Source: Clostridia bacterium (GTDB lineage: Bacteria > Bacillota > Clostridia > UMGS1883). From it: a stretch of 37,977 nt of DNA. The notes beneath the pieces are model-generated. The model was not told the origin of the DNA. It worked only from the letters and a program-made list of their open reading frames with translations, and searched no databases. This document shows, piece by piece, positions 1 to 33,791 of the stretch; the stretch's first letter is position 1, and every line of letters begins with the position of its first letter. The translations under genes and the position numbers were made by a program. The stretch covers positions 1-37,977 of the forward strand of contig JAFVPB010000050.1 of the NCBI GenBank assembly GCA_017505525.1, read 5' to 3'.

Positions 1-839
1 AGGTTGCAGCTAATGCATTTGTAAAAACAGATAATGATGAACTTAAAGTTTTCGACTTTATTAACCATGAGAACAGTATGGAGTATTATGAACTTGTAAC
101 AGAATGGTTCAATAAGGGATACATAAGAAAGGATATTCTTTCTCTTACAGATATAACTCTTGACGAAGGTAAAGAGGATGGCTATGTTCTTTGGGCAGAC
201 AGCTGCTTTAAGGGAGCAAGTGAAACAGATAGTAAGAAATACGGAATGGAAGTTATTTCAACAGCTCTGTTTGACAGATTTATTGTTTCGCACAACAGAC
301 CTTCAACAAATACAGCTATAGCAAAAACATGTGAGAATCCTGAAAAAGCAATGGAATTTCTTAATCTTATGAACTCTACAAAAGGTAAGGACCTTTTCAA
401 CCTTCTTGTATTTGGATTTGAGGGAGAGCACTATAAAAAAATTGACGATACAAAAATTGAATGGTTGCTCGAAAGTCAGCCGGGAACATCAAGCGATATG
501 GCTTATGGATTCAGTGCATGGGCGCTTGGTAACACATTTAATGCGTATACAACACAGTACGAGGTTGATGGTTGGAACGATTATATCTTAAATGAAGTAA
601 ATGCAAATGCGATTGTTTCTCCGCTTGCAGGCTTCTCGCTTGATCGTCAGCCAATTAAACTTGAACTTGCGCAGTATGATGCTATATTTAACGAATATGT
701 TTATCTTGATCTTGGTGCAACGCCTAACTATAAAGAGCTTATTAAAGAAAGAAACGAAAAGATGAAGAAAGCAGGAAGCGATAAGATTCTTAAAGAAACA
801 CAACGTCAGATTGATGAATGGAAAAAAACTAAGAAGTAA
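1..839 (+). CDS. ABC transporter sugar-binding lipoprotein, C-terminal part (DUF3502 type)
   Basis: The reading frame is open from base 3, so the gene starts before the window and only about 278 C-terminal residues are visible. They match the end of family 1 extracellular solute-binding proteins of the LipO type carrying a C-terminal DUF3502 domain. The final part is rich in Lys, Glu and Asn, with a motif like LDLGATPNYKELI and a closing helix ending in WKKTKK. Such proteins sit on the outer face of the membrane and deliver oligosaccharides to an ABC permease pair, which would lie upstream, outside the window. The glycosidase and beta-helix genes that follow suggest the ligand is a plant or host glycan fragment. 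The ATG at position 78 is internal. Family assignment is fairly sure; the ligand is unknown. Confidence 0.85.
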   Translation, partial: VAANAFVKTDNDELKVFDFINHENSMEYYELVTEWFNKGYIRKDILSLTDITLDEGKEDGYVLWADSCFKGASETDSKKYGMEVISTALFDRFIVSHNRPSTNTAIAKTCENPEKAMEFLNLMNSTKGKDLFNLLVFGFEGEHYKKIDDTKIEWLLESQPGTSSDMAYGFSAWALGNTFNAYTTQYEVDGWNDYILNEVNANAIVSPLAGFSLDRQPIKLELAQYDAIFNEYVYLDLGATPNYKELIKERNEKMKKAGSDKILKETQRQIDEWKKTKK

Positions 840-859
840 TTAAATAAATTACAAATAAT

Positions 860-926
860 GCAGGGAAGGGGCTCTGCCCTTACGCAAATATATAAAAAGT
901 CGGGAGGGTGCAGAGTCCACCCCTGC
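860..926. repeat. Imperfect inverted repeat between sugar-binding protein and glycosidase genes
   Basis: Two arms at about 860-880 and 905-926 pair around an AT-rich loop. The left arm begins GCAGGG and contains CTCTGCCCT; the right arm contains AGGGTGCAGAG and ends CCCCTGC. The GC-rich arms stand out against the AT-rich surroundings. No T-run follows, so a classical terminator is unlikely. It may be a dispersed REP/MITE-like repeat or an mRNA-processing hairpin that separates expression of the binding protein from that of the downstream gene. Confidence 0.5.
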
Positions 927-964
927 AAAAATGAAAAGCTTTGATAATAAAGGAGATATGCAAT

Positions 965-2941
965 ATGACAAAACACACAAGAGCAATACACATTGATTTT
1001 CACACTCCCGATGGAGTTTACGATTTTGGAAGCGAATTTTCAGCTGCTGAATTTGCACAGACTTTAAGTGATGCCAAGGTAAAGTATGTTACGGCATTTG
1101 CTCAGTGTAATTTTGGCTATGCATATTTTAAAACAGAGATAGGTATTCCTTATCCTACTATGAAAGGAGATATGCTTCGCGATATCATCAAAGAATGCCA
1201 CGCGCGAGGCATTAAGGTTAACGCCTATATTAACGTTGGCATCAACAATGCGCAGGCAGATAAACATATTGATTGGTGTCGCGTTAATGCAAACGGACAG
1301 ATTTACTCAGGAAATGTAAAAGAAAACTGGCAGCACAGAAGTATGTGCTACAACACCCCATACAGGGAGTTTCTTCTTTCTATGATAGAAGAAATTGCAA
1401 CAAAAACAGATTGCGATGGAATTTTCTGCGATTGTATGGGCTGTTCAAGATGCTACTGCCCCGCGTGTTTGAAGAAAATGCGTGAGCAGGGCATAGATAT
1501 TAAAGATGATGATGCAACTTTAAAATTTTACTATGATTCACTTTTAAGCTTAGGTCGCGATATAAGGGCTGTTGTTCCCAAAAACAAGGACCTCGTTTTA
1601 AGCGGTGTGCCGCAGGATTATTCCGTTCCTGTGGCAGGACAGACTCACTTTGAAATAGAAAGCCTTCCCGGTGGATTTGGTGGATGGAGCCACGATTATA
1701 TAGGTCCTCAGGCTTCGTACCAAAGAAATATTTGCCCAGATAGCCTTTATATGTCGGGCAGATTCCATGCTTCATGGGGAGATTTTGGTGGAATAAAAGA
1801 AAAGGCCTCAATGGAAAATGATCTTTTCGATGCTCTTATATATAATATTGGTTTTTCAATAGGCGACCATATGAATCCGCGAAATGGTCTTATTAAACCT
1901 CTTTATAAAACTATAGGTGAGGTTTTCACAAAAGCCGAATTTTACGAAAAATATACAGAAGGTGCAAAGTATTGTGCCGACATCGGAGTTGTTCGCAATA
2001 AAATTGCGCACAATCTTCCATATTTAGCAGACGAACATTACGGTGCTAACCGAATTCTTACAGAGCTTGGCTACACCTTTGATATAATTAATGAGGATAT
2101 GGATTTCAGCAAATATAAGCTTTTAATCCTTCCCGATAATGTAATTCTTACAGATACACTTAAAGAAAAGATTCAAGAGCATATCAGCAAGAATAAGGGC
2201 TTGATTTCAAGTGCATATTCGCTTTATAATAAAAAAGAAAATAAGTTTATGCTTGATGAATACGATTTTATCACTCCGTGCGGGCTTGATGAAGATACGG
2301 CAACATGCTACAAGTTTACGGATGAAGCTTATGGCGATACTTCTATTGATTTTTCTGATTACGCTCTTGGCGTTCTTATGAAAGCAAAAAATGAAGAAGA
2401 TGTTGTTGCAAAACGTATTGAGCATTATTGCGACGACAGATGGGACAGACCATATTTTGACTACAGATGGATTGACCATCATCTTTATACATATCTTCCG
2501 CCATCGGGAAAGTCGAGCTATGATGCGGTTGTGTTAAATAAAAACATTTGCCATATTGGTTTTGAATTATTTGGAGGATACCACAGACATGCTGCAGTAT
2601 TCCATAAACAGCTTTTAGACAGTATCATTAAAAAGTTTATGCTTGATCCTGTAATCAAAAAAGAGGAATTACCCTCAACATCGAAAGTCAGCTTAACCGA
2701 AACTGATAGTTATAAGCTTTTAAATATTAAAGTTACATATCCTGAACCAAGAGGCAAGTGGTTCAAGATTGTTGAAGAGCATAATTCAATTCTTCCTGGC
2801 AAAAAGGTTAAAGTTTTAGGCAAGTTTTCTGAAATAAAATGTGTGGAAACAGGAAATGATGTTTCCTTTGAATTTGACGGAACATACACAACAATAACGC
2901 TTCCAGAAATTGTTGGCTTTGGAATGTTTATGTTAAAGTAA
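965..2941 (+). CDS. GHL6-type TIM-barrel glycoside hydrolase (GH151/alpha-L-fucosidase-like)
   Basis: This 658-residue protein has no signal peptide, so it should act in the cytoplasm on imported oligosaccharide. The N-terminal half (about residues 5-330) looks like the hypothetical glycosyl-hydrolase 6 barrel: it opens TKHTRAIHIDFHTPDGVYDF and has a Cys-rich strand at residues 155-168 (C155, D156, C157, C160, C163, C165, C168). Residues about 350-570 resemble a beta-galactosidase-trimerisation/flavodoxin-like domain, followed by a beta-sandwich tail. Start chosen at ATG 965 because AGGAG lies at 951-955; an in-frame TTG at 941 lies ahead of that site. Relatives include GH151-type fucosidases, but the substrate is inferred only. 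It follows the sugar-binding protein gene and precedes the beta-helix gene. Confidence 0.7.
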   Translation: MTKHTRAIHIDFHTPDGVYDFGSEFSAAEFAQTLSDAKVKYVTAFAQCNFGYAYFKTEIGIPYPTMKGDMLRDIIKECHARGIKVNAYINVGINNAQADKHIDWCRVNANGQIYSGNVKENWQHRSMCYNTPYREFLLSMIEEIATKTDCDGIFCDCMGCSRCYCPACLKKMREQGIDIKDDDATLKFYYDSLLSLGRDIRAVVPKNKDLVLSGVPQDYSVPVAGQTHFEIESLPGGFGGWSHDYIGPQASYQRNICPDSLYMSGRFHASWGDFGGIKEKASMENDLFDALIYNIGFSIGDHMNPRNGLIKPLYKTIGEVFTKAEFYEKYTEGAKYCADIGVVRNKIAHNLPYLADEHYGANRILTELGYTFDIINEDMDFSKYKLLILPDNVILTDTLKEKIQEHISKNKGLISSAYSLYNKKENKFMLDEYDFITPCGLDEDTATCYKFTDEAYGDTSIDFSDYALGVLMKAKNEEDVVAKRIEHYCDDRWDRPYFDYRWIDHHLYTYLPPSGKSSYDAVVLNKNICHIGFELFGGYHRHAAVFHKQLLDSIIKKFMLDPVIKKEELPSTSKVSLTETDSYKLLNIKVTYPEPRGKWFKIVEEHNSILPGKKVKVLGKFSEIKCVETGNDVSFEFDGTYTTITLPEIVGFGMFMLK

Positions 2942-3013
2942 AAAATGTTGGGAGGGAAATTCCCCTCCTGAAAATTAAACTTTTATTTATGAACAAAAAT
3001 TGGAGGAGATAAT

Positions 3014-6616: not shown

Positions 6617-6642
6617 AGTAAAAGCATACAAGGAGGAAGGAT

Positions 6643-17460: not shown

Positions 17461-18717
17461 GTGAAGAAAAAATTTGAGTACAAGTGGATTATTGCAATTT
17501 CTTGTTTCTTGATGATTTTTACGGTGCTTGGATTTTGTTCATCAGGAAGAGGGCTTTATATTGCGGCAGTTACAGAAGCACTTGGAATATCAAGAAGTGC
17601 ATTTTCTGTTAACGATAGCCTCAGATTTATAACAACTGCTATTGTAAATCTGTTTTTCGGCTCACTTATTATGAGATTTGGTGCACGAAAACTGATTGCT
17701 GCAGGGTTTATTTCGCTTACTATTGCCTGCATTTTATATGCTATAGGAACAAATGTATTTGTTTTTTATATAGGAGGTATATTCCTTGGAATTGGTTTCT
17801 CGTGGACGGGTACAACAATGATTGGAGCTATCATTGGCAGATGGTTTAAAGAAAACAGGGGCACTGTAATGGGAGCAATTCTTGCAGCTAATGGAGTAGG
17901 TGCGGCTCTTTCAATACAGATAGTTTCCCCTATAATATATCAGGAAGGCAACAAATTCGGTTATCAGGATTCATATAAATTAGTTGCTTTAATACTTGTT
18001 GTTGTGGGAATACTTGTTGTAAGCTTAATAAGAAATAACCCCAAGGAAGATAATCTTAGTGTTCCTCAGACAGGAAAGAAGAAGCCAAAAGGCAATGTTT
18101 GGCCGGGTAAATCATTTGATGAAATACTTAAGAAAAAATATTTCTATGCTGATTTATTCTGTGTTTTTGTAATGGGAATGGTGCTTCAGGGTATTTCAGG
18201 AGTTGCAGCTCCTCTTCTAAGAGATGTTGGCCTTAAAGAAAGCTATGTGGCATTGGTTCTCAGTGCGAGCTCAATTGCGTTAACAGTTTTCAAATTCGGT
18301 GTTGGTTTTTCTTACGACAGGTTCGGAATCAGAACAACATCAAATATCTGCTGTATTACAGCGATATTTATTATGATTATTCTTACGCAAATTACAAATT
18401 CATACGTAGGTATGGTTCTTGCAATGCTTTATGGTATCTTTTCTTCGCTTGCACTGCCACTTGAAACAATTATGCTTCCAATTTTTGCGGGAGAATTGTT
18501 TGGAGAAAAATCTTATGATAAAGTGCTTGGTATTATTTGCTCTGTGAATACTGCGGGCTATGCCGTTGGTATTCCGCTTGCAAACCTTTGCTATGATATA
18601 TTCGGTACTTATAATATTGCTCTTTACATATCAGCTGGACTTATGCTTGTAGCAACAATTATCAAGCAGTTTGTTATAACAGAGAGCAAAAAGGAAAGAT
18701 TAAGCTTAGAAGTATAA
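17461..18717 (+). CDS. MFS transporter, oxalate/formate antiporter-like
   Basis: The 418-residue permease has 12 predicted transmembrane helices in two halves separated by a charged loop at about residues 195-225. The helix 2-3 loop carries the MFS motif-A-like FGARKLIAAG, with a matching FSYDRFGIRTTSN in the second half. The sequence pattern (GRGLYIAAVTEALGISRS) resembles the OFA and related monocarboxylate carriers, so a small carboxylate is a reasonable guess. Translation starts at GTG 17461 with AAAGGTG at 17448-17453. Its own promoter and terminator make it monocistronic. Control by the divergent LysR protein is inferred. Confidence 0.88.
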   Translation: MKKKFEYKWIIAISCFLMIFTVLGFCSSGRGLYIAAVTEALGISRSAFSVNDSLRFITTAIVNLFFGSLIMRFGARKLIAAGFISLTIACILYAIGTNVFVFYIGGIFLGIGFSWTGTTMIGAIIGRWFKENRGTVMGAILAANGVGAALSIQIVSPIIYQEGNKFGYQDSYKLVALILVVVGILVVSLIRNNPKEDNLSVPQTGKKKPKGNVWPGKSFDEILKKKYFYADLFCVFVMGMVLQGISGVAAPLLRDVGLKESYVALVLSASSIALTVFKFGVGFSYDRFGIRTTSNICCITAIFIMIILTQITNSYVGMVLAMLYGIFSSLALPLETIMLPIFAGELFGEKSYDKVLGIICSVNTAGYAVGIPLANLCYDIFGTYNIALYISAGLMLVATIIKQFVITESKKERLSLEV

Positions 18718-18747
18718 AAAATGCTTCCCATTTGGGAAGCATTTTTT
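18717..18747. terminator. Bidirectional terminator after the MFS gene
   Basis: A perfect stem (AATGCTTCCC / GGGAAGCATT, extended by A/T pairs) with loop ATTT lies between convergent stop codons. A-run and T-run flanks allow use on both strands. Confidence 0.9.
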
Positions 18748-19621
18748 ATGTGTTTAATTCGGAAGTTTGAAATTGAAGTTTTTTATATGCACTGGGAGAA
18801 TAACCAAAAAATTTTTTAAAGGCTTCCGCAAAGTAGCTGGCTCCGCTGAAGCCGCATTCGAAACCAATTTGTGTTAAAGTTAAATTGGTGGTGTTCATAA
18901 GTTCAATGCTCTTTTTTAAACGGTGTTTTGTAAGGTAGTTAACGGGAGAACTACCTGTGTAAACATTAAAGATTTTATTGCAGGTGGTTTTTCCTACATT
19001 GCCTGAAGAAGCTATTTCTTCAAGTGTTATTTTTTCCTTGTAATGAAGATGGATATGTGAAACCATTTTTTTAAAAGCATCTGTCATTTCCGTATTTGAA
19101 AAAGTATATTTTTCTTTTTTGCCAAGATTTTTATAGATGCTTGCCCATATACTGAAAAATGCCGAATACAGTTCGGGCTCAAAATTCTCGTCAGATTTAT
19201 AATCATATATTTTTTCAATGTAATCTAAAATATTTTTTTCCCACTGTGTGTCTGTTTTTAATATATAGTGTGAAAGTGTTTGATTTGTTAAAACAGGCAA
19301 AATATATTTTTCCTCGTAGTGTTTTTTTGTGCAAAGGAAAGCGGGGTCGAAGATAACGCACAAAAAACAGCAGTCATTATTATTGGAAGAGAAGTTGTAA
19401 TGAACCTGATTGGCGTTGATATATAAACCATCTCCTTCGGAAAGCTCGATGACTTCGCCGTCGATACAATAGTTTATTCTGCCTGATAATATCTTAACAA
19501 ACTCAATATCATTGTGCCAGTTTATGTGTGATGTAAACGGAGTGGAAAGTATGTTTTCTTTTTTAATGAATATTGGGAATTTCGGATGATTGTAAGGAAC
19601 GTTTTCAAAAAAGTTATTCAT
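18746..19621 (-). CDS. AraC family regulator with cupin sensor, divergent from the GH3/GH94 operon
   Basis: The 291-residue protein has an N-terminal cupin-2-like sensor (about 1-150; HINWHNDIEFVKILSG is the typical first sheet with its His residues) and a C-terminal AraC DNA-binding domain (about 195-285; CGFSGASYFAEAFKKFFG). ATG 19621 is chosen because AGAGGG lies just upstream; an in-frame ATG at 19702 would add 27 untypical residues and invade the divergent promoter. The sensor type usually binds sugars. Its position suggests it regulates the glycosidase-phosphorylase operon starting at 19763. Confidence 0.88.
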   Translation of the reverse strand: MNNFFENVPYNHPKFPIFIKKENILSTPFTSHINWHNDIEFVKILSGRINYCIDGEVIELSEGDGLYINANQVHYNFSSNNNDCCFLCVIFDPAFLCTKKHYEEKYILPVLTNQTLSHYILKTDTQWEKNILDYIEKIYDYKSDENFEPELYSAFFSIWASIYKNLGKKEKYTFSNTEMTDAFKKMVSHIHLHYKEKITLEEIASSGNVGKTTCNKIFNVYTGSSPVNYLTKHRLKKSIELMNTTNLTLTQIGFECGFSGASYFAEAFKKFFGYSPSAYKKLQFQTSELNT

Positions 19622-19674
19622 AATAAAATTTACCCTCTGACGAAAGATTGTTATATATTTGCGTAATAATGTGA

Positions 19675-19703
19675 TTGAAAAATATTTTATAATAAAGTAC
19701 AAT
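19675..19703 (+). promoter_or_regulatory. Promoter of the GH3/GH94 operon
   Basis: TTGAAA (19675-19680) and TACAAT (19698-19703) are 17 bp apart. The leader of about 55 bases contains GGAGG before the ATG at 19763. Confidence 0.6.
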
Positions 19704-19762
19704 TATTATAATGAATTATGCGGATATTGTCAATAAAAACATAAAAGTATGGAGGTTATATA

Positions 19763-21298
19763 ATGACATTAAGAGAAAAAATTTTAAAAACTTTTGTTGT
19801 AACAATTCGCGAAATAAACACCCATGGCGGTGCAGAAGAATTCTTTAAAAAATATCCTGTGGGTGGCTTATATTATGGTGAAGAACCGGCGCATGTTATT
19901 AACGGAAAATATATGGGAACACAGTTTGATTTTGAAACTCTTAACGAAATCAAAAAACATTCTCCCAAGAAACTTCTGGTTTGTGCTGATGGTTGTGCCA
20001 TAAGAAACCAAACCGTGATGATTGGAAGTCAAAAATCTCTTGGTGCATCAAGAAATTTAAAAGATGCATATAACTGGGGTAAAGTATTGGGTATGCAGAT
20101 GAATGATAAGGGCGTTGACTGGATTCTTGGCCCAAGTATTGATATGTGTTTTGACCCTCTTATGTATTTGATGGCAATAGGAAATGATCCTAAAGTGATT
20201 GCAGATATTTACCGTGAAGTTGTAAGAGGAATTCAGGACCAGGGCGTGTGCGCAACAGTAAAGCATTTTCCCGGACTTGGAACAAACTTTGTAAATATGC
20301 ATATAGCACCCGGTAAAAACGTTCTTTCATATGATGAATGGATGAAAACATATGGGTATACATATAAGGAAATGTTCAAGGCAAACGTACACAGCGTTAT
20401 GACGACTCATGTAACGCTCAGGTCGTATGATAATGAGGGAGATAACGGATTCTATCCCATTGCAACATTCTCAAAGAAGCTTACAACCGACCTTTTAAAA
20501 GGAGAACTCGGATTTGATGGGGCAGTGGTTACTGATGCACTTATAATGGGCGGTAACGGAGTTGGCGATTATGTGGCTGAAACCGTTCAGGCATTTAAAG
20601 CGGGTGCAGATTTGCTTTTGTGGCCCCCTGTTGAAGCGGCTGAAGTTATAGAAGAAAAGATTAATAGCGGAGAAATTCCGATGAGCCGTCTTGAAGATGC
20701 ACTCGTGCGCATAGAAAGAATGGAAAAATTCAGAAATGATGCTCTCGAAAATAATTCCTATGATGAGCCTGATGCAAGATTTGTTGATGAAACAAAGATA
20801 GAAATTTCAAAGAATGGAATGTGCCTTTTAAGAAATGATTTAAACTTAATTCCATTAAACACAAAACAGTGTAAAAAGGCTTTGATAGTTGATATAACGG
20901 ATGACGATGATTTTTCTTCAAATCTTCTTTGCAGTGAACTTATAAACCGTGGTATACAAGCAGAGGTCAAACGCGATATTTATGATAAGGAATCGCTTGT
21001 TTGCTGGCAATCCGATATAGAAGAAATTCAATCCCACTACGACTTTGTGATAATGAATCTCAATGCGCATTTTGTAGCACAGTGGAGTGATGCACATGTG
21101 CTTATTTGGGCATCGCATCACTTTGATAAGAAAAAGAAGATTATTATTAACTATGGCTCGCCATATTTTGCAAGTGAGTATTTCCCGGAAGATCCCACAT
21201 ATATTGAAGCCAACACAACTCCCACAAAGGAAACGGTTGGATTAATAGTTGACGGGCTTTTAGGGAAAATGGAATTTACAGGAAGAAGTTTATTGTAA
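19763..21298 (+). CDS. Glycoside hydrolase family 3, beta-N-acetylhexosaminidase-like
   Basis: The 511-residue protein lacks a signal peptide. The GH3 N-terminal barrel (about 1-330) carries ATVKHFPGLGTNFVNMH, the KHFPG loop typical of NagZ-type hexosaminidases, and the nucleophile Asp258 in AVVTDALIMGG. A smaller C-terminal alpha/beta domain (about 350-500) resembles the GH3-C region. NagZ-type GH3 enzymes use a His/Asp dyad on a flexible loop; MTTHVTLRSYDNEGDNG could carry it, but the assignment is uncertain. The substrate may be a beta-linked N-acetylhexosaminide or a beta-glucoside. The next gene is a GH94-like phosphorylase only 15 bases on, so the two probably share a substrate pool in the cytoplasm. 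Confidence 0.82.
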   Translation: MTLREKILKTFVVTIREINTHGGAEEFFKKYPVGGLYYGEEPAHVINGKYMGTQFDFETLNEIKKHSPKKLLVCADGCAIRNQTVMIGSQKSLGASRNLKDAYNWGKVLGMQMNDKGVDWILGPSIDMCFDPLMYLMAIGNDPKVIADIYREVVRGIQDQGVCATVKHFPGLGTNFVNMHIAPGKNVLSYDEWMKTYGYTYKEMFKANVHSVMTTHVTLRSYDNEGDNGFYPIATFSKKLTTDLLKGELGFDGAVVTDALIMGGNGVGDYVAETVQAFKAGADLLLWPPVEAAEVIEEKINSGEIPMSRLEDALVRIERMEKFRNDALENNSYDEPDARFVDETKIEISKNGMCLLRNDLNLIPLNTKQCKKALIVDITDDDDFSSNLLCSELINRGIQAEVKRDIYDKESLVCWQSDIEEIQSHYDFVIMNLNAHFVAQWSDAHVLIWASHHFDKKKKIIINYGSPYFASEYFPEDPTYIEANTTPTKETVGLIVDGLLGKMEFTGRSLL

Positions 21299-21313
21299 TT
21301 AAGGAGATTGAAT

Positions 21314-23590
21314 ATGTATATCTTTAATAACGAGAAAAAAGAGATAACAATTAAAAAATATAATATGCCTACGCCATGGATGAACTACCTTTCAAACGGA
21401 ACATTCCATACAATGATGTCGCAGGCAGGTGGCGGTGTGGCATTTTATAAATCACCGCAGATATGGAGAATTAACCACTATCGTTTCTTCCATATCCCAA
21501 CCGACAGAAGCGGTTTCTACACATACATAAAGGATGGCAATTCTGTATGGTGCCCCACATCGGAGCCTATGCGCGAAAAACCCGATGCGTGGAGTGCCAC
21601 TCACGGAATGGGATACACAAGATTTGAAGCAGCTAAAAACGGACTTAGCACAGTAGCAACATATTTTGTTGGTCCATATGAAAACTGCCTTATATGGAAT
21701 TTAAAGTTAAAATCAGATGCCGACAGAAAAATTACAATTTTCCCATACGTTGAGCTTGGTATGATGGAATTTATGCGCGAGCTTCAGTGGCAGTGCTACA
21801 GTAAGCATCAGCTCGAGTGTTACAATCTTGATGACATACTGGTTTATGAATATGGTTGCGAAGATCAGCCAAAGCCTGATGAAACTCCGCTTATATATTT
21901 TGCAAGCAGCGCACCTGTTTCTGCATTTGAATGCGACAGAGATGAGTTTATCGGTGGCTATCGCAGTGAAGAAAATCCGCAGAGAGTGGAAGAGGGGCAT
22001 TTATCAAACAGCACAATGTGCGGTGGCGACCCTTGTTTTGCACTTGAGCTTAATATTGATTTAAAAGCAGGAGAAGAAAAAATAGTTAATATTTTCCTTG
22101 GTGCCGCTATGACGGAGGAAGACATTAAAAAGAGTGTGGCGCACTGTAGAGAAAATGATTTTGTATCAAAATCTTTTGAGGCTCTTAATAAGCACTGGGA
22201 AAACCATTTTTCTCATTTTGTGGCAGAGCTTCCCGATAAAGATGCTGAAACAATGATTAACATATGGAATCCCTATCAGGCAGAGCGTAATTTCCAGTTT
22301 TCTCGCAATATAAGCTACTATGCTACAGGCACGTTCCGCGGAACGGGCGTGCGTGATACTGCGCAGGATATTCTTTCTATGGTACCTTTTGATTTAAGAA
22401 GAGCTAAAGATAAGCTTAATCTTCTTTTAAATCAGCAGTATAATGACGGACATACAAACCACTACTGCTTCCCGAACGAAGGATGGGAACCTCTTAAGAG
22501 AATTCATTCAGATAACCACCTCTGGCTTATTATGACGGCGTATCATATTGTTATGGAAGAGGGAAAATTAGATTATTTAGACGAGGTTGTTCCTTTTTAC
22601 GATGGTGGAGAAGCTACTGTTTGGGAGCATATTAAAAAATCGGTTGAATATACTAAGTCGCACTGCGGAGAAAACGGATTTCCGCTTATGCTTGCATCCG
22701 ACTGGAACGATATGCTTTCAAGAGTTTGCCGTGAGGGAAAAGGCGAAAGCATCTGGACTTCTATGCAGTATGGCACAGTGCTCCGCCAGATTGCAGAACT
22801 TGCAAAGCTTAAGGGAGAAAGCGACGAGCTTTATGTAAAACTCTATAACGAACAGAAAGAATTAATTAATACCGTTGCATGGGACGGAGAATGGTTTATA
22901 AGATGCATTACCGATAACGGCAGATTTATCGGAAGCGATAAGGAAAGCCAGGCAAAGGTATGGCTCAACAGCCAGACATGGGCAGTACTTTCAGACCTTG
23001 GAGATAAAGAAAAGCAGATTAAAGCTATGGACAGTGTGAGAAAATATCTTAACACTGAAATTGGTATCAAGAAAATACATCCTTCAATGAAAGACTATCC
23101 ATCAAAGGAAGATCCGCTTACATATGATAAACCTGGTTGCAGTGAAAACGGCTCAATTTTCTGCCACGCAAACACATGGGCGATTATAGCGGAATGTATG
23201 CTTGGAAGAGCAGAAAATGCATACGAATACTATCATCAGCTTCTTCCGATGATTGCACAGAAGAAAGTGGGAGAGTGGCGCTATAAGGCAGAGCCTTATG
23301 TTTATTCTTCAAATATTTTCGGGCCTGAAAGCGATAAATTCGGTCTTGCCAATGTTAGCTGGCTTTCGGGAACTGCATCGTGGATGTATATAGCTGCAAC
23401 GCAGTATATGCTTGGAATTAAACCAAAGTACAACGGACTCGAAATCAGCCCTTGTCTTTCAAAAGAAATGCTTCCGTGTAAGGTAACAAGAATGTTCCGC
23501 GGAACAAAATATGAAATCACAATTACTTCCAATAATAGAGTATTTATTCCTCACGAAGATGGGAAAGGAGTTGTAAAAATAACGGTTTGA
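21314..23590 (+). CDS. GH94-like glycoside phosphorylase
   Basis: The 758-residue protein has the architecture of inverting disaccharide phosphorylases: an N-terminal beta-sandwich (about 1-270), a helical linker, an (alpha/alpha)6 barrel (about 300-680) and a short C-terminal jelly-roll. GVRDTAQDILSMVPFD and ASDWNDMLSRV (D463-D466, DWND) are the hallmark segments; in GH94 the DWND region holds the general acid. Such enzymes split a beta-linked disaccharide with phosphate into a sugar 1-phosphate and free sugar, saving ATP. Candidates include cellobiose, chitobiose, laminaribiose or beta-1,2-linked substrates; sequence alone does not decide. ATG 21314 has AAGGAG seven bases upstream; the in-frame TTG 21308 is rejected. 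There is no signal peptide, so the reaction is intracellular. Confidence 0.85.
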   Translation: MYIFNNEKKEITIKKYNMPTPWMNYLSNGTFHTMMSQAGGGVAFYKSPQIWRINHYRFFHIPTDRSGFYTYIKDGNSVWCPTSEPMREKPDAWSATHGMGYTRFEAAKNGLSTVATYFVGPYENCLIWNLKLKSDADRKITIFPYVELGMMEFMRELQWQCYSKHQLECYNLDDILVYEYGCEDQPKPDETPLIYFASSAPVSAFECDRDEFIGGYRSEENPQRVEEGHLSNSTMCGGDPCFALELNIDLKAGEEKIVNIFLGAAMTEEDIKKSVAHCRENDFVSKSFEALNKHWENHFSHFVAELPDKDAETMINIWNPYQAERNFQFSRNISYYATGTFRGTGVRDTAQDILSMVPFDLRRAKDKLNLLLNQQYNDGHTNHYCFPNEGWEPLKRIHSDNHLWLIMTAYHIVMEEGKLDYLDEVVPFYDGGEATVWEHIKKSVEYTKSHCGENGFPLMLASDWNDMLSRVCREGKGESIWTSMQYGTVLRQIAELAKLKGESDELYVKLYNEQKELINTVAWDGEWFIRCITDNGRFIGSDKESQAKVWLNSQTWAVLSDLGDKEKQIKAMDSVRKYLNTEIGIKKIHPSMKDYPSKEDPLTYDKPGCSENGSIFCHANTWAIIAECMLGRAENAYEYYHQLLPMIAQKKVGEWRYKAEPYVYSSNIFGPESDKFGLANVSWLSGTASWMYIAATQYMLGIKPKYNGLEISPCLSKEMLPCKVTRMFRGTKYEITITSNNRVFIPHEDGKGVVKITV

Positions 23591-23676
23591 TTATAAACTA
23601 TCTCCGTTGGTAAAAATGTTTGCCATTGGGGTGGTGAAGAAACGAGGATATTAAATAAAATATAAGAGGTGGTAGT

Positions 23677-24789
23677 ATGAATAATGTTTTAAAATATCAT
23701 CCAACAGTTTGTGCGGTAGGAAACACGTATCAGATTATGATTACGACGTGGTGCAACGCACTTTTGAGCGTTCGTGTGGGCAATAAGGTTTATTATAATC
23801 ATAGTAATGGCATACGTATATCAAGTGCCGGAGTTCAGAGATTTGTAATACCTATGGAAAAACTTGATAAGGAATGTTCATATACAGTTATATCACAGGG
23901 GATGATGGAAAGATGTCCTTATTTTCCAAAAACAAGAGAAAAGGTAGAAACTACATACAGCTTCAAACCTCTTGAGAAAACTGAAAATATAAATATATGT
24001 CATCTTGCTGATGTTCATGGTTATTCAGAGCAAGCTGTAAAAGTTGCAGAATATACAGGAAAAGAAATTGATTTGCTGATTTTGAACGGAGATATTTCAA
24101 GTTCTTCAAATACAGTTGATGATATAACTCTTTGTTACGAAATCACAGGAAATATTGCTAAAGGAGAAATACCATGCATTATTTCAAGAGGAAATCATGA
24201 TTTAAGAGGATATTTGGCAGAAACTGTTACAAATTACATGCCTACCCAAAACGGAAAGTCTTATTATACTTTTAAAGTAGGGTGTATTTGGGGAATTGTT
24301 ATAGATACAGGTGAGGATAAGCTTGATAGCGAACCTGCATACGGAGAGACTATATGTTGCCACGAATTTCGCCTTGAAGAAGACGAAATGATAAAAGAAG
24401 TTATAAAAAATTCTGCTTCAGAATATGAAAGGGAAGATATTAAATATAAAATTATAGTATCACATGTTCCGTTCACATTCCCGAGAAGTCCGCTTTTTGA
24501 TATTGAGCGTGATTTATATACAAACTGGAGTAATTTGCTTAAAGAGAATGTTAAACCGCAGCTTATGCTTTGTGGACACACCCACAAAGCGTGCATTAGT
24601 GAAGCTGGAAGTGAATATGATAAATACGGACAACCATGCACTATAATTGTTGGCTCTGAGATGGATGACACAAAAACTGAACTCAATAAATTGGTAATCG
24701 GTGCTTTAATAAACCTAAATGATACATATGCAGATGTTGTTTTTAATAATATGAATGAAATTACAGGTGGAGGAAAGGTCGAGTTTTAG
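23677..24789 (+). CDS. Calcineurin-like metallophosphoesterase
   Basis: The 370-residue protein has a beta-rich N-terminal domain (about 1-100) of fibronectin-like look and a metallophosphoesterase domain. Its motifs are in order: LADVHGY (D112, H114), LNGDISS, SRGNHDLRG, VSHVPF and CGHTHKA, which together hold the bimetal centre. Enzymes of this group cleave phosphomonoesters or diesters. There is no clear signal peptide. An 86-base gap separates it from the phosphorylase, without a terminator, and AGAGGTGG precedes the ATG. In this setting it could dephosphorylate a sugar phosphate produced by the phosphorylase pathway, but this is inferred from position only. Confidence 0.88.
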   Translation: MNNVLKYHPTVCAVGNTYQIMITTWCNALLSVRVGNKVYYNHSNGIRISSAGVQRFVIPMEKLDKECSYTVISQGMMERCPYFPKTREKVETTYSFKPLEKTENINICHLADVHGYSEQAVKVAEYTGKEIDLLILNGDISSSSNTVDDITLCYEITGNIAKGEIPCIISRGNHDLRGYLAETVTNYMPTQNGKSYYTFKVGCIWGIVIDTGEDKLDSEPAYGETICCHEFRLEEDEMIKEVIKNSASEYEREDIKYKIIVSHVPFTFPRSPLFDIERDLYTNWSNLLKENVKPQLMLCGHTHKACISEAGSEYDKYGQPCTIIVGSEMDDTKTELNKLVIGALINLNDTYADVVFNNMNEITGGGKVEF

Positions 24790-24798
24790 GAGTGGCTT

Positions 24799-25686
24799 AT
24801 GAAGATTTCTATTTGTGATAAAGGTATATTATATTCATATCTTAGAGAGCTTGGATATTCTGGTTTGGATATTTCCTTCAATAGATTTAATGAAAGGGAT
24901 TATATTCTTAATAATGAATACACAGAATATATAAAAAGAAAATTTGAAGAAATTACAAAGGCTGGGTTAAATGTAAGTCAAACGCATTTAACATATTATC
25001 CCGGACACTTAAAGCCGATAGGGAACGGAACATATCAGGAATTTGAAGATTATATGCTTCCAATGTTTATTAAAGAAATAGAATTAACAAAAATGATGAA
25101 TTGTAAAGTTTGTGTTATTCATCTCTATTTTGAAAAAGATAAACTGGCAAGCAGAGAGGGAAATATTAAACTTATTTCAAAAATGATTCCCTATGCTGAA
25201 AGAAACAATGTTGTTATTGCAATTGAAAATATATATGGAAATGATTATAATGATGTGCATCTTACAACTAAAGATGATTTATTGTTCTATATAGAGTATT
25301 TCAAGAGTAAATTTCTGGGAGTTTGCCTTGATACGGGTCATTCTATTGTTTTAAAGCAAAATCCGGTAAAATTATTTGAAGAATTAAAGGAGCATATTGT
25401 CGCATTACATCTTCACACCACAGTGGAGAATGTTGATTTGCATGCAATTCCATATACTGTTTCCTATTGCGAAAGTATAGAATGGGACACTTTATATAAG
25501 TTGATTCTTTCATCAAACTACTCAGGAACTCTTAATTTTGAATTAAGGCCACCTGATAACCTGAGCGAAGGGGCAAAGAAAGCTTATTATATGTTTGCAT
25601 ATGAGACTGCAAAGACGATTATTGATAATTATGTACAACGGGAAAAAGCCTACCGATTTACAACCCGAAGCACCGAAGAGGAATGA
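24799..25686 (+). CDS. Sugar phosphate isomerase/epimerase-like TIM-barrel protein
   Basis: The protein is 295 residues, with the xylose-isomerase-like TIM-barrel fold. Likely metal ligands sit in VVIAIENIYG (Glu), GVCLDTGHSI (Asp, His), ALHLHTTVENVDLHAIP (His) and GTLNFELRP (Glu), the usual order for this superfamily. It starts nine bases after the phosphoesterase gene, so they are surely co-transcribed. It probably isomerises or epimerises a sugar released by the GH3/GH94 enzymes. The last ten or so residues (after about 25633) may be unreliable, because the DNA beyond reads well in other frames (see the fragment at 25634-25797). Confidence 0.85.
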   Translation: MKISICDKGILYSYLRELGYSGLDISFNRFNERDYILNNEYTEYIKRKFEEITKAGLNVSQTHLTYYPGHLKPIGNGTYQEFEDYMLPMFIKEIELTKMMNCKVCVIHLYFEKDKLASREGNIKLISKMIPYAERNNVVIAIENIYGNDYNDVHLTTKDDLLFYIEYFKSKFLGVCLDTGHSIVLKQNPVKLFEELKEHIVALHLHTTVENVDLHAIPYTVSYCESIEWDTLYKLILSSNYSGTLNFELRPPDNLSEGAKKAYYMFAYETAKTIIDNYVQREKAYRFTTRSTEEE

Positions 25687-25802: not shown

Positions 25803-25890
25803 AAAAGAGGATGTTTAAAAATGAACTGCCCCAGTTTGTGCTGTCTGCACAAACTGGGGCAGTTCAAAACTTATTTTTACATCCCCTTTT
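25803..25890. repeat. Nested 88-base palindrome at the end of the isomerase operon
   Basis: An inner perfect 20-bp stem (25822-25841 with 25847-25866, five-base loop TGTCT, core CTGCCCCAG) is enclosed by an outer 12-bp stem (25803-25814 with 25879-25890, AAAAGAGGATGT with ACATCCCCTTTT, one mismatch). Six T residues close the structure, so it may act as a terminator. Its length and nested form also fit a small miniature mobile palindrome. The next promoter starts immediately after it. Confidence 0.75.
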
Positions 25891-30630: not shown

Positions 30631-31983
30631 ATGAGTAAAACAATAGTTAAAGACCTTACAAAGGGAAGCGTGGTTAAGCTGTTACTGGTTTTTGCTTTCC
30701 CTCTTTTCCTTTCTAATGCACTTCAGGCAATTTATAACATAGTGGATATGATTGTGGTAGGTCAGTGCCTTGGGGAAAATGGTATGTCTGCCGTTTCGAT
30801 CGGTGGAGATATGCTTCATTTACTTACATTTGTCGCAATGGGATTTTCTTCTGCAGGGCAAGTCCTTATATCGCAGGATGTGGGAGCAAATCGTATGGAT
30901 AGGGTAAAGAAAACTATAGGGACAATGTTTTCTTTTTTACTTATAGCCTCTATCGTAATGTCTATTGTATGTTATTTTTTAAGAAACAATATTCTTTCAT
31001 GGCTTAACACGCCAGAAGAATCTTACAAATATACGCTTGATTATACTGTAACGTGTATTGTAGGTCTTGTATTTATTTACGGTTATAATATTGTGAGTGC
31101 CATTCTTCGCGGAATGGGGGATAGCAAACGTCCCTTTACTTTTATTGCCATTGCTGCAGTGCTGAACATTATTTTAGATATATGGTTTGTTAAGTATCTT
31201 AACCTTGAAGTTTTTGGAGCAGCACTTGCTACCGTTATAGGACAGGGAGTAAGCTTTGTAGTTTCGATTGTTTATCTTTATATCAAGCGGGATAGTTTTT
31301 GCTTTGATTTTAAACCTAAAAGCTTTTTGATGGAAAAAAATGCACTTTCAAGAATTATAAAACTTGGCGTACCAATGGCAATTCAGTCTGCCGCTATTAA
31401 CCTTTCAAAGATAGTGCTTATGTCGTGGATTAATATGTTTGGCGTTACATACTCGGCATTGGCAGGTATATACAATAAGATAAATGTTATGAGTGGCGTT
31501 GTTTCTAATTCATTTACAACGGCAGGAAGTGCTATGGTCGGGCAGAACCTTGGTGCGGAAAAAGATGAAAGAATTTCTTCAATTCTTAAAACAGTTGCAG
31601 TTTGTGGAGGTTTGGTTGCGGTAGTATTCTCGTTTATAATATTTACCTTCCCAAATCAAACATTTTCTGCTTTTACAAGCGATGCTAAAGTTCTATCTAT
31701 TGCTTCAATCCTTATTTCACCAATCATTCTTAATTTCTTTGGTGCGGCAACAAGGAGCATAAGTTTTTCTCTTATAAACGGCTCGGGAAATACAAAGCTT
31801 AATCTTGCAGTTGCAATTATAGATGGCGTAATAAGCAGAGTTGGAATATCGGCTCTTTTAGGTTTTGCGCTTAATATGGAATGCCTTGGTTTCTGGTATG
31901 GCGATGCTCTTGCAGGTTTTGTGCCAATAATTATAGGCTTAACTTTCCTCGTATCAGGTAAGTGGAGAACAAAAACCTCCTGA
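30631..31983 (+). CDS. MATE family efflux transporter (second copy)
   Basis: The 450-residue MATE carrier begins MSKTIVKDLTKGSVVKLLLV, a typical start for the DinF/NorM-like group in Clostridia. It has about 12 transmembrane helices, with ALQAIYNIVDMIVVGQCLG as helix 1. ATG 30631 is chosen because the upstream in-frame TTG 30595 lies inside a terminator; the RBS is weak (GGATG). It is only distantly similar to the MATE protein at 10017. Its own terminator follows at 32010. The substrate is unknown. The C-terminus GKWRTKTS is complete, so the mobile element next to it did not cut the gene. Confidence 0.92.
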   Translation: MSKTIVKDLTKGSVVKLLLVFAFPLFLSNALQAIYNIVDMIVVGQCLGENGMSAVSIGGDMLHLLTFVAMGFSSAGQVLISQDVGANRMDRVKKTIGTMFSFLLIASIVMSIVCYFLRNNILSWLNTPEESYKYTLDYTVTCIVGLVFIYGYNIVSAILRGMGDSKRPFTFIAIAAVLNIILDIWFVKYLNLEVFGAALATVIGQGVSFVVSIVYLYIKRDSFCFDFKPKSFLMEKNALSRIIKLGVPMAIQSAAINLSKIVLMSWINMFGVTYSALAGIYNKINVMSGVVSNSFTTAGSAMVGQNLGAEKDERISSILKTVAVCGGLVAVVFSFIIFTFPNQTFSAFTSDAKVLSIASILISPIILNFFGAATRSISFSLINGSGNTKLNLAVAIIDGVISRVGISALLGFALNMECLGFWYGDALAGFVPIIIGLTFLVSGKWRTKTS

Positions 31984-33717
31984 TAAAAAGTGAAAAATTA
32001 AGAAACAACAAAAATCCGAACCCTTCACCGATTGGTACAAGGTTCGGATTTTTTCTGTTTGGTGCGAGTGTTCATAACGTGTCAAAACTAAACTCGCAAA
32101 AAGTTGATAGCGACAGCGAACCGTTGTGAGGGCGTTTACAACCGAGCAGGTAAGCCGAGCGTGACTTTTTGCGAAGGAGGAGAAGCAAGGAAGCGAGCGG
32201 ATGACTTTTTTGCATAAAAAAGTCGAAGCAAAGCGAACTTTGCTTCGACGTGGTGCACCGAGTAATGTTAAATCCGAACTTAAGGCAGAATTTTCTATTT
32301 CCTCTAAAGTAATAGTTTCTGTGCCGTCCTTGTAGTTGCAATCAATTATGATTTTATCATCATATAAGTAAACAGAGTTAAGAAAACTGTCCACAAGTCT
32401 TCTACGATGTTCCAATCTTTTAGGATTGAGCTTTCTGAATCTGTATATCCAGAAAAGAATCTGCTCTTTTGTAAGATTAGGTCTGCTCATTTCTTCTTTC
32501 ATTATCTGTATGGATAATTCGCTCTTTTCTCGTTCAAGAGTTTCAAGCCGTTCTTTGGTAGAAGGTGTAAAAATACCCTGTTGAATGGCGTTGAGCATAT
32601 TATCAATGCTTTTCTGAGTTTCAGCATATTGTTTCTGTAAAATCGGCAAAGTGGTATTTTCTTTATGCAGGTGTTCAAGGAGTGCATCTGCCAATTTATC
32701 CATCAAGTCATCATCAAAGAGTATCTTCATAAGGTGAGAAATCACGATATTCTCAATCCATTCCTTGCGGACAGTCTTTTTATCGCATCCTCTGTGGTAT
32801 TTTACGCTGACACACTTATAGTAGCGGTGAACGTGCTTTGTATGGCTTGTACCGCTTTCACCAACCATAAGACAGTTGCATTTTCCGCAAAACAACTTGG
32901 TTGTAAGTAAATAGTCGTCTTCAGCTTTATGCTTTGCAGGAGCCTTTTTATTTGCTTTCATTTTTTCTTGCACCCTTTCAAATAAATCTACCGGAACTAT
33001 CGGAGGTATTCCGTTCGGAGTAGTTATATCGCTGTATTTGTATTCTCCAATATATCTTCTGTTGTGTAACATTCGGGTTACTGTGTTTAATGTAATCCGA
33101 GTGTTCTTTTTAGTACGGACACCTTTTAAATTTAATTCATCGGTAATTTGTTGCATCGTTGCACCTTCTGCATAATGCTTAAATGCATCCAATATCGCCG
33201 GTGCAGTAAGTGAGTCTATGACAAAATGTTGGTTCTTATCAGTAGAATAACCTATTGGCAAAGTACCACCATTGTATTTGCATTTAAGAGCGTTTTCCTT
33301 AAGCCCTCGGGTGACCTTTTCGGATAATTCTGCCGAGTAGTATTCAGCCATACCTTCAAGTAAGGATTCGAGTAAAATACCTTCGGAGTTTTGAGAAATT
33401 TTCTCTGTCGCGGAAACAACTTTAACTCCATTTTTCTGTAATATTGCTTTATAGTGTGCGGAGTCATATCGGTTTCGTGCAAAGCGATCTAATTTCCAGA
33501 CTATAATCATCTCAAAATTGCCTTTTGAACTTTCCTTAATCATTCTCTGAAAGTCCGGTCGGTTATCGGTTTTTGTCGATAAAGCTCGGTCTATGTATGT
33601 ATCAACTATTGTGATGTCGTTTGCTTCGGCAAAGGCTTTGCATTCCCGAAGCTGACCGTCAATAGATTCTTCGCGTTGACTGTCTGAAGAATATCTTGCA
33701 TAAATTACTGCGTTCAT
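31954..33717 (-). CDS. Large serine recombinase (resolvase/Recombinase family)
   Basis: The open frame of 587 residues starts at ATG 33717 with AGAGG upstream; the product begins MNAVIYARYSSDSQREESID. An N-terminal resolvase catalytic domain (about 1-145; nucleophile Ser10, the Arg pair in WKLDRFARNRYD) is followed by the Recombinase domain (about 160-270), a zinc ribbon (FCGKCNCLM ... YYKC, about 285-320) and a coiled-coil region (about 355-420). Such enzymes integrate and excise mobile elements. Sequence after about residue 485 looks unlike the family: it runs through structured repeats and over the MATE terminator. The native stop may have been lost at the element boundary, or the tail may be a common readthrough artefact. 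Activity cannot be judged. Confidence 0.85.
   Translation of the reverse strand: MNAVIYARYSSDSQREESIDGQLRECKAFAEANDITIVDTYIDRALSTKTDNRPDFQRMIKESSKGNFEMIIVWKLDRFARNRYDSAHYKAILQKNGVKVVSATEKISQNSEGILLESLLEGMAEYYSAELSEKVTRGLKENALKCKYNGGTLPIGYSTDKNQHFVIDSLTAPAILDAFKHYAEGATMQQITDELNLKGVRTKKNTRITLNTVTRMLHNRRYIGEYKYSDITTPNGIPPIVPVDLFERVQEKMKANKKAPAKHKAEDDYLLTTKLFCGKCNCLMVGESGTSHTKHVHRYYKCVSVKYHRGCDKKTVRKEWIENIVISHLMKILFDDDLMDKLADALLEHLHKENTTLPILQKQYAETQKSIDNMLNAIQQGIFTPSTKERLETLEREKSELSIQIMKEEMSRPNLTKEQILFWIYRFRKLNPKRLEHRRRLVDSFLNSVYLYDDKIIIDCNYKDGTETITLEEIENSALSSDLTLLGAPRRSKVRFASTFLCKKVIRSLPCFSSFAKSHARLTCSVVNALTTVRCRYQLFASLVLTRYEHSHQTEKIRTLYQSVKGSDFCCFLIFHFLSGGFCSPLT
32010..32054 (+). terminator. 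Intrinsic terminator after the second MATE gene
   Basis: A 13-bp stem AAAAATCCGAACC / GGTTCGGATTTTT encloses an 18-base loop that can form a small inner hairpin (ACC GATT GGT). T-run follows. The recombinase frame on the other strand reads through it. Confidence 0.88.
32096..32252. repeat. Structured repeat region at the 3' end of the recombinase gene
   Basis: The region holds several palindromes. GCAAAAAGT (32096-32104) is inverted at ACTTTTTGC (32164-32172). GACTTTTTT / AAAAAAGTC (32203-32211 with 32216-32224) is a hairpin. A perfect 12-bp stem with loop CGAA lies at 32222-32249 (GTCGAAGCAAAG / CTTTGCTTCGAC). The last two share GTC and exclude each other. GTGACTTTTTGCG and ATGACTTTTTTGCA are near direct repeats. 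It may be the recombinase attachment or end region of the element. Confidence 0.55.
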
Positions 33718-33791
33718 ATATTCACGTCCTCTCATATTTTTATATATCTTTTATAACATTAGCTTTATAGTTATACAAATGTGTGAACTAA

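Follow-up and report, generated by a model that had tools for sequence, protein, structure and literature searches.

The locus at positions 18746-25686 of the window, by which we mean the whole stretch of 37,977 nucleotides analysed here (contig JAFVPB010000050.1 of a Clostridia bacterium), raises the question of what a glycoside hydrolase family 3 (GH3) enzyme, a GH94 phosphorylase, a calcineurin-like metallophosphoesterase (MPE) and a xylose-isomerase-like TIM barrel protein, encoded one behind the other and divergently from an AraC/cupin regulator, might do together, and whether all four belong to the same route. The initial annotation had proposed that an imported disaccharide is phosphorolysed inside the cell and the product dephosphorylated, isomerised or epimerised. 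Our analysis leaves the phosphorylase-based intracellular set standing, the GH94 enzyme having every phosphate and donor residue that was checked, but not the idea that all four genes make up a single conserved pathway. With a little more than even confidence we consider the locus to be an AraC-controlled cytoplasmic operon around a conserved GH3-GH94 pair, with a GH94 acceptor that is not of the cellobiose or chitobiose type.

The GH94 enzyme and its clade

The earlier label 'GH94-like' can be tightened to GH94, as both Pfam models are above cut-off; the supersandwich and the catalytic (alpha/alpha)6 domains are both present, and the catalytic model is covered over 1-420 of its 420 positions. 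The catalytic residue is D468, and R349, D350, W466, E613, F618, H620 and T689 are kept as well, all of them being invariant in 52 distinct rows of at least 700 amino acids and also in 56 rows including copies. Assigned by motif, they are the counterparts of the donor and phosphate residues R630, D631, W758, D760 and E917, with Y922 and S1005 at the phosphate, given in the accessible part of PMC5309861, and of Arg342, Asp343, Trp454, Asp456, Tyr609, His611 and Thr676 in that of PMC8741936. The phosphate-side Tyr of the literature is a Phe (F618) in the window enzyme, as in the four references. The objection that the initial annotation had raised against itself, a phosphorylase lacking its phosphate-binding residues, therefore does not apply, since all of those checked are present. 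We read the protein as a predicted inverting phosphorylase with an uncharacterised acceptor.

An AlphaFold model of the enzyme has a moderate mean predicted local distance difference test (pLDDT) score of 74.1, and because low-confidence stretches (333-346, 463-469, 588-619 and 667-687) lie round the active site it served for fold ranking only. In this ranking 1v7v (Z 39.1), 3s4c (38.6) and 8ho8 (38.4) are tied, so that the structure does not choose among them.

Relatives were collected from named genomes, and the best 80 of 89 confirmed ones were kept. Their best-segment identity to the window enzyme is 60-84% in 55 loci and 26-37% in the other 25, with none between 37% and 60% among these best 80 of 89; the nearest outside relative seen, which came from a separate genome search, is 40% identical over the whole length (G102:C18). 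In a tree built from the C-terminal halves (104 rows) the 56 clade rows are monophyletic, with a support of 100/100 and a branch of 1.16 changes per column. The phylogenetic placement suggested earlier as a check has thereby been carried out and sets the clade apart from 3qde, 3s4c, 1v7v and 8bou; the sister group suggested by the tree is unsure because of long branches, flagged by the tree program, in the outside rows next to the clade. Nine rows (the window and L006-L013) form one supported group, which we call the window subclade. According to the source records nearly all 55 loci come from Clostridia, Lachnospiraceae, Oscillospiraceae or Bacillota, and many are, by record title, metagenome-assembled genomes from the gut of goat, deer, buffalo, yak, sheep or cattle. 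The cultured carriers include Ructibacterium gallinarum (L040) and Clostridium sp. KNHs205 (L035). A clade GH94 is present in 5 of 147 genomes searched, and 20 searched genomes that share the window's genus or family (G001-G020) gave no GH94 match; the locus is therefore patchy in its own family. In the titles and abstract openings of an open-access library, no publication was recognised as describing this operon or clade.

In a MAFFT alignment of the 56 clade rows with 44 outside rows, position 668 is Ser in 56/56 clade rows, placed opposite the Gln of cellobiose phosphorylase and found as Gln in 40/44 outside rows, and position 612 is Gly or Ser in 56/56 against Lys in 40/44; this Gln and this Lys are presumably acceptor-side residues. 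Position 161 is Trp and position 163 Cys throughout the clade, against Asn (39/44) and Gln (33/44) outside. By count along the line of 3qde, Cys163 stands at the place of Q165, which for CgCBP is named as acceptor-side in the text available of PMC5309861. The segment 149-168 is invariant in the clade at 19 of its 20 positions, compared with 234 of 760 for the whole protein, and each of the 44 outside rows agrees with it at 1 to 6 of the 20 places. Judged by these residues, the donor side of the clade is unchanged and its acceptor side is remodelled and strongly conserved.

Cellobiose phosphorylase (3qde, 2cqs) is homologous over the full length (3qde 423.6 bits) and has the same domains and the same catalytic and donor set. 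However, its identity in structural alignments is 27-29%, the window enzyme is without the long loop after DWND, most of the acceptor-side residues compared are changed in the clade, and the two group apart in the C-terminal-half tree; of the acceptor-side residues one Tyr persists in 47 of the 56 clade rows, though not in the window. Chitobiose phosphorylase 1v7v has the short loop after DWND and is the top structural match, tied with the cellobiose phosphorylases, but this one reference lies outside the clade and keeps Gln at 668 and Lys at 612. The solabiose phosphorylase PBOR_28850 (768 amino acids) has the same general donor-side set, and its proposed acceptor residues Thr337, Trp603 and Phe672 would correspond to R344, S612 and W685 in a hand mapping by spacing from Arg, His and Thr (PMC8741936, in the part available). 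The mixed-linkage glucan locus of Blautia producta (GH16/GH94/ATP-binding cassette (ABC)) resembles ours in being a gut Firmicute locus with a GH94 enzyme (BpGH94MLG, 8bou), an AraC regulator and an ABC importer, but 8bou falls outside the clade and cuts cellotriose and G4G3G (PMC10318527, likewise in part), and no GH16 match is found in the window operon. In the PDB the molecule name of 8bou is N,N'-diacetylchitobiose phosphorylase, in contrast to the cellotriose/G4G3G phosphorylase of that paper.

The GH3 enzyme and the conserved pair

The protein upstream of GH94 shows the features of a GH3 member, namely the Glyco_hydro_3 domain, the nucleophile Asp and the KHFPG motif. From the motif (KHFPG...NMH) we take D258 to be the nucleophile, H180 the acid/base and Asn178 its dyad partner. 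The best PDB match is the GH3 beta-glucoside phosphorylase BglP/BglX (5vqd; 1.1e-30, 109.9 bits, residues 87-509), with which the His acid/base is common, its dyad Asp being replaced by Asn178. NagZ-type GH3 hydrolases have a His acid/base too, so that the enzyme may act by hydrolysis or by phosphorolysis. The best NCBIfam match is a beta-N-acetylhexosaminidase model (1.6e-24; 86.7 bits against a cut-off of 207), and the structure model was too poor for a structural search (mean pLDDT 63.2). GH3 phosphorylases owe their activity to the His acid/base and form beta-sugar phosphates, as stated in the accessible part of PMC8950772. Asn stands at the dyad place in 10/10 rows of the clade GH3 alignment, but also in six GH3 proteins outside the clade (26 rows compared; the motif pattern misparsed two further rows as Arg), and was therefore rejected as a mark of the clade. 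The copy in G036 has KYFPG instead of KHFPG and keeps NMH.

Besides the window, a clade GH3 gene directly adjoins the GH94 gene on the same strand in 10 of the 55 loci, with GH3 first in L006, L007, L009, L011, L012, L013 and L023 and GH94 first in L037, L038 and L055; with the window included, GH3 is first in 8 and GH94 in 3 of 11 pairs. The adjacent pair is carried by 6 of the 8 other members of the window subclade, L008 having a 32% identical GH3 at a distance of 2.2 kb, which was not counted as a pair, and L010 having no GH3. A survey of 391 genomes of the class, a different draw from the 147 of the GH94 survey and with at most three candidates scored per genome, revealed a GH3 of at least 57% identity in five, namely G000 (the window's own genome), G036, G104, G153 and G337, and all five have a clade GH94. 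Gene neighbourhoods and co-occurrence thus indicate that the conserved part of the operon is the GH3-GH94 pair. In five loci (L007, L011, L012 and L013, with GH3, and L045) the clade GH94 stands near dnaK/dnaJ-type genes, which were checked by Pfam in L007 and by cluster in the others.

Proposed route and competing explanations

In the explanation that we favour, an imported beta-linked oligosaccharide would be finished off in the cytoplasm under AraC control. GH94 would phosphorolyse a beta-linkage by inversion, giving an alpha-sugar 1-phosphate, presumably of glucose as the default donor of the family, and an acceptor which would differ from that of cellobiose or chitobiose phosphorylase and may vary between the window subclade and the rest. 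GH3 would remove a neighbouring beta-linked unit by hydrolysis or retaining phosphorolysis, and the MPE and TIM barrel genes may have joined the operon in this lineage as accessories, their proteins working on one of the products or on a side group. As the natural source we consider a plant-wall or fucosylated glycan probable, which is the weakest step and is based on the genes beside other clade members.

In detail, these genes were grouped by single linkage, the family being read on one representative per cluster, and the 55 loci are not independent of each other. Found anywhere in them were DUF3502-type solute-binding proteins (16 loci, the family being assigned via the link of the cluster to the window's binding protein), GDSL-type (12), heparinase II/III-like (12), GH28-like (11, and 6 for a second GH28 cluster), GHL6 (10), FAD oxidoreductase (9), GH88-like (5) and L-fucose isomerase (5) clusters, all five L-fucose isomerase loci having GHL6. 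The L-fucose isomerase representative reaches 909.6 bits with TIGR01089 (cut-off 850), the GHL6 of L035 is close to the alpha-L-fucosidase structure 6tvk (3e-258), and the closest models for the second GH28 cluster are those of rhamnogalacturonidase and polygalacturonase, whose cut-offs it does not reach. The GH88-like representative, whose cluster is absent from the loci of the window subclade, passes the model for the beta-galactosidase BglB (428.4 against 420 bits). Within the subclade, a GH28-like gene directly follows GH94 in L007, and L008 has GH20 (two genes upstream of GH94), heparinase-like (under the Pfam cut-off) and GH16 genes. The clade neighbours suggest plant-wall or fucosylated glycans, least of all for the window. 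The window's own GHL6 is 24.8-27.8% identical to the ten GHL6 of the GH94 loci, which weakens the view that it is the same enzyme, and the alpha-L-fucosidase likeness of the L035 protein was not carried over to it; the window's binding protein is 28.6-45.5% identical to its counterparts.

A number of observations weigh against the favoured reading. The fucose genes and most of the pectinase-type neighbours belong to the other group of 47 rows. The nine-row subclade has Asp (or Glu) at position 607 and Ser at 612, where these 47 rows have Tyr and Gly, the Tyr being the residue of cellobiose phosphorylase; the acceptor therefore need not be the same throughout the clade, and the idea of a single one is weakened. 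In 45 of the 55 loci no clade GH3 stands beside GH94, and two of the five clade-GH94 genomes among the 147 (G073 and G102) show no close GH3 among the at most three candidates scored in each. In all four genomes with a close GH3 besides the window's, GH3 and GH94 lie on different contigs, so that the link there is one by genome and not by place; the GH3 of G036 is a partial frame, and the GH94 of G337 reads with one internal stop. The absence counts are themselves soft, as among the 54 loci in which a GH94 frame was called 8 have less than 2 kb upstream, 9 less than 2 kb downstream and 26 at least 5 kb on both sides. The tree covers neither the 40% relative nor the laminaribiose, cellobionate, 1,2-oligoglucan, solabiose and acholetin enzymes, and to our knowledge activity is known for no clade member.

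That all four enzymes form one route, in which an imported disaccharide is phosphorolysed, its sugar 1-phosphate dephosphorylated by the MPE and the free sugar isomerised or epimerised, we regard as unlikely. All four genes are co-oriented with short gaps (GH3-GH94 9, GH94-MPE 86 and MPE-TIM 9 nucleotides) before one terminator-like repeat; L006 repeats MPE-GH3-GH94, L008 has in a row GH94, another AP_endonuc_2 protein, a GFO/IDH/MocA oxidoreductase and the distant GH3, and L183 groups an AP_endonuc_2 protein, GH3, GH36 and an MPE relative. However, the conservation of the four genes, for which the initial annotation had proposed a neighbourhood comparison, was rejected: of the 55 clade GH94 loci 1 has a member of the MPE family nearby and none a member of the window's TIM family, clade GH94 occurs in 2 of 15 MPE genomes searched for it, and to dephosphorylate the product would waste the energy saved by phosphorolysis. 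Very unlikely, in our view, is a pair of two phosphorylases in which GH94 yields the alpha- and GH3 the beta-sugar 1-phosphate, the MPE clearing the beta form for want of a clear beta-phosphoglucomutase. Such a role agrees with the match to the phosphorylase 5vqd and with the beta-sugar phosphates formed by GH3 phosphorylases, and in G000 no beta-phosphoglucomutase lies above the TIGR01990 cut-off (best 59.9 against 189.4 bits). Yet His-type GH3 enzymes include hydrolases, the dyad Asp is missing (although Asn occurs in other GH3 groups too), the pair is accompanied by an MPE only in L006 besides the window, and a phosphatase or mutase may be encoded elsewhere in the genome.

It is also distinctly unlikely that the GH94 specificity lies outside everything described, possibly with a galactose donor, and acts beside a GH3 phosphorylase, the two phosphorylases taking a single oligosaccharide apart and giving opposite anomers. 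The hints of a galactose donor are weak, namely Ala in 56/56 clade rows at the place of N667, no loop at T508, and the GH88-like neighbour passing the BglB cut-off. Changes at T508 and N667 turned cellobiose phosphorylase into a lactose phosphorylase, according to the part of PMC4336185 available, but Ala also occurs at the N667 place in 7/44 outside rows, which weakens the hint, and a lactose-phosphorylase-like donor was dropped as the leading explanation, this Ala not being special to the clade. A pair serving N-acetylglucosamine glycans (chitobiose, host glycans or cell-wall recycling), with a NagZ-like GH3 and a chitobiose-type GH94, appears highly improbable in spite of the beta-N-acetylhexosaminidase model as best NCBIfam match of GH3, the short loop common to GH94 and 1v7v, the first though tied structural rank of 1v7v (with 3s4c and 8ho8), and the GH20 gene of L008, a member of the window subclade. 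1v7v is outside the clade and carries a Lys and a Gln at the places of the clade's Gly/Ser and Ser, the short loop recurs in many of the outside rows, and no chitin gene was noticed in the annotated loci, most neighbours there not having been put to Pfam.

A core of GH3 and GH94, the latter of an uncharacterised acceptor type, is the reading of the operon that we prefer, and it would be no new kind of system. GH94 enzymes are used for making defined oligosaccharides and few specificities are known in the family, so that a widespread, strongly conserved Clostridia clade whose phosphorolytic machinery is, by its residues, intact and whose acceptor side has been rebuilt offers a good candidate for a new linkage. 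The acceptor of the clade would tell which glycan these bacteria share, and, given the conserved GH3 partner, two proteins would suffice to test the route.

With regard to the two accessory proteins, both are predicted to be active, probably so because their metal-site motifs are complete. In the MPE, where about 105 residues precede the Metallophos domain, these are DVHG 112, NGDI 137, GNHD 172, SHVPF 262 and GHTH 300 (DxH, GD, GNHD, H, GHTH), and in the TIM barrel protein, which matches the AP_endonuc_2 fold model, IENIY, LDTGH, ALHLH and NFELRP (E / DxGH / H / E), the motif sets being those which we take to be typical of the two families. The MPE is without a PDB match at 0.001, and the six NCBIfam matches of the TIM barrel protein are weak and all far under cut-off, the top one being CbiR, a phosphodiesterase. 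MPE family matches, some of them weak, occur in 18 of 391 genomes, of which 15 (13 + 2) were searched for GH94; the two with a clade GH94 are G000 and G104, the latter with MPE and GH94 on different contigs. The neighbours of the MPE vary, being GHL6 and two ABC permeases in L186, the AP_endonuc_2 protein, GH3 and GH36 already mentioned in L183, and an endonuclease/exonuclease/phosphatase-family gene and GH3 in L190. In L186 (G022) the GHL6 is 40% identical to the window's and stands beside the permeases and the MPE relative, which links the two ends of the window. The MPE relatives of G104 C8 and C16 (L189 and L190; 66 and 67%) lie at contig ends and have the same first 55 residues but different following genes, as in a repeated or assembly-broken region. 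The closest relative of the TIM barrel protein (80%) is in the same genome (G000:C50:849-1676, L191), followed by relatives of 46% and 38%, and weak matches are common (127/391 genomes). A GH4 enzyme (Pfam) is one gene away from the L191 copy and an AraC-like gene is on the same contig; this copy may show the real pathway of the TIM protein.

Operon layout and flanking genes

The five open reading frames of the initial annotation lie at the coordinates it had given, and each family is backed by a Pfam match above cut-off (Table 1).

Table 1. Coordinates of the operon, its putative signals and two distant genes of the window
Feature	Position	Strand	Evidence and remarks
AraC/cupin regulator	18746..19621	-	divergent from operon; Pfam HTH_18 8e-19, Cupin_2 8.7e-10, AraC_binding
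Divergent promoter-like sites	19675..19733	- (19733-19705, 12/12); + (19675-19703, 10/12)	consensus matches
GH3 enzyme, 511 aa	19763..21298	+	Pfam PF00933 Glyco_hydro_3 1.8e-42; best PDB 5vqd
GH94 phosphorylase, 760 aa	21308..23590	+	Pfam PF17167, PF06165; supersandwich 1.3e-64, catalytic domain 5e-111
Calcineurin-like metallophosphoesterase (MPE), 370 aa	23677..24789	+	Pfam PF00149 Metallophos 3.3e-14, residues 106-304
Xylose-isomerase-like TIM barrel, 295 aa	24799..25686	+	Pfam PF01261 AP_endonuc_2 2.8e-22
Terminator-like inverted repeat, 20 pairs	25822..25866	both	better T run on - strand
ABC solute-binding protein, C-terminal part, DUF3502	78..839	+	Pfam PF12010; open frame to base 3, cut by contig start
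GHL6 protein	941..2941	+	sole GHL6 above Pfam cut-off in this genome; 18 kb from GH94

In the list of open reading frames the AraC gene starts at TTG 19702, and a downstream ATG at 19621 gives the interval of Table 1. The TTG is probably wrong and the ATG the real start, because the 12/12 promoter-like site ends at 19705. With this start the AraC and GH3 genes begin 141 nucleotides apart, and the gap holds both promoter-like sites. As the region has 31 such sites against 29.4 in shuffles, the argument is their location next to both starts and not their count. Terminator-like sites of all qualities number 12 against 4.7 in shuffles; the repeat behind the TIM gene is terminator-like on both strands, and its 20 pairs are long for a terminator. 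Past this repeat follow a PocR-type AraC regulator, an M20 peptidase and an OPT transporter, which look unrelated to the operon.

The absence of signal peptides from the enzymes, on which their placement inside the cell had been based, agrees with the N termini as judged by eye, with no predictor behind this judgement. It also holds that the transporter is outside the operon; a major facilitator superfamily (MFS) gene lies at 17461-18717 beyond AraC (Pfam MFS_1), for which the nearest NCBIfam models, all under cut-off, are bile-salt, L-lactate and galactonate/oxalate-formate transporters. The truncated ABC solute-binding protein at the contig start is a candidate importer for the operon. Positions 78-10000, at least 8.7 kb upstream of the operon, encode the DUF3502 binding protein, GHL6, a beta-helix/carbohydrate-binding module (CBM) protein, a response regulator and a sensor kinase, which are the same kinds of genes as those flanking GH94 in other genomes. 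On the other side, a large serine recombinase (31954-33735; Resolvase, Recombinase and zinc ribbon domains) lies near a DUF6076 gene and possibly marks the edge of a mobile element, and the protein encoded at 36130-37605 has three S-layer homology stretches and a cohesin domain.

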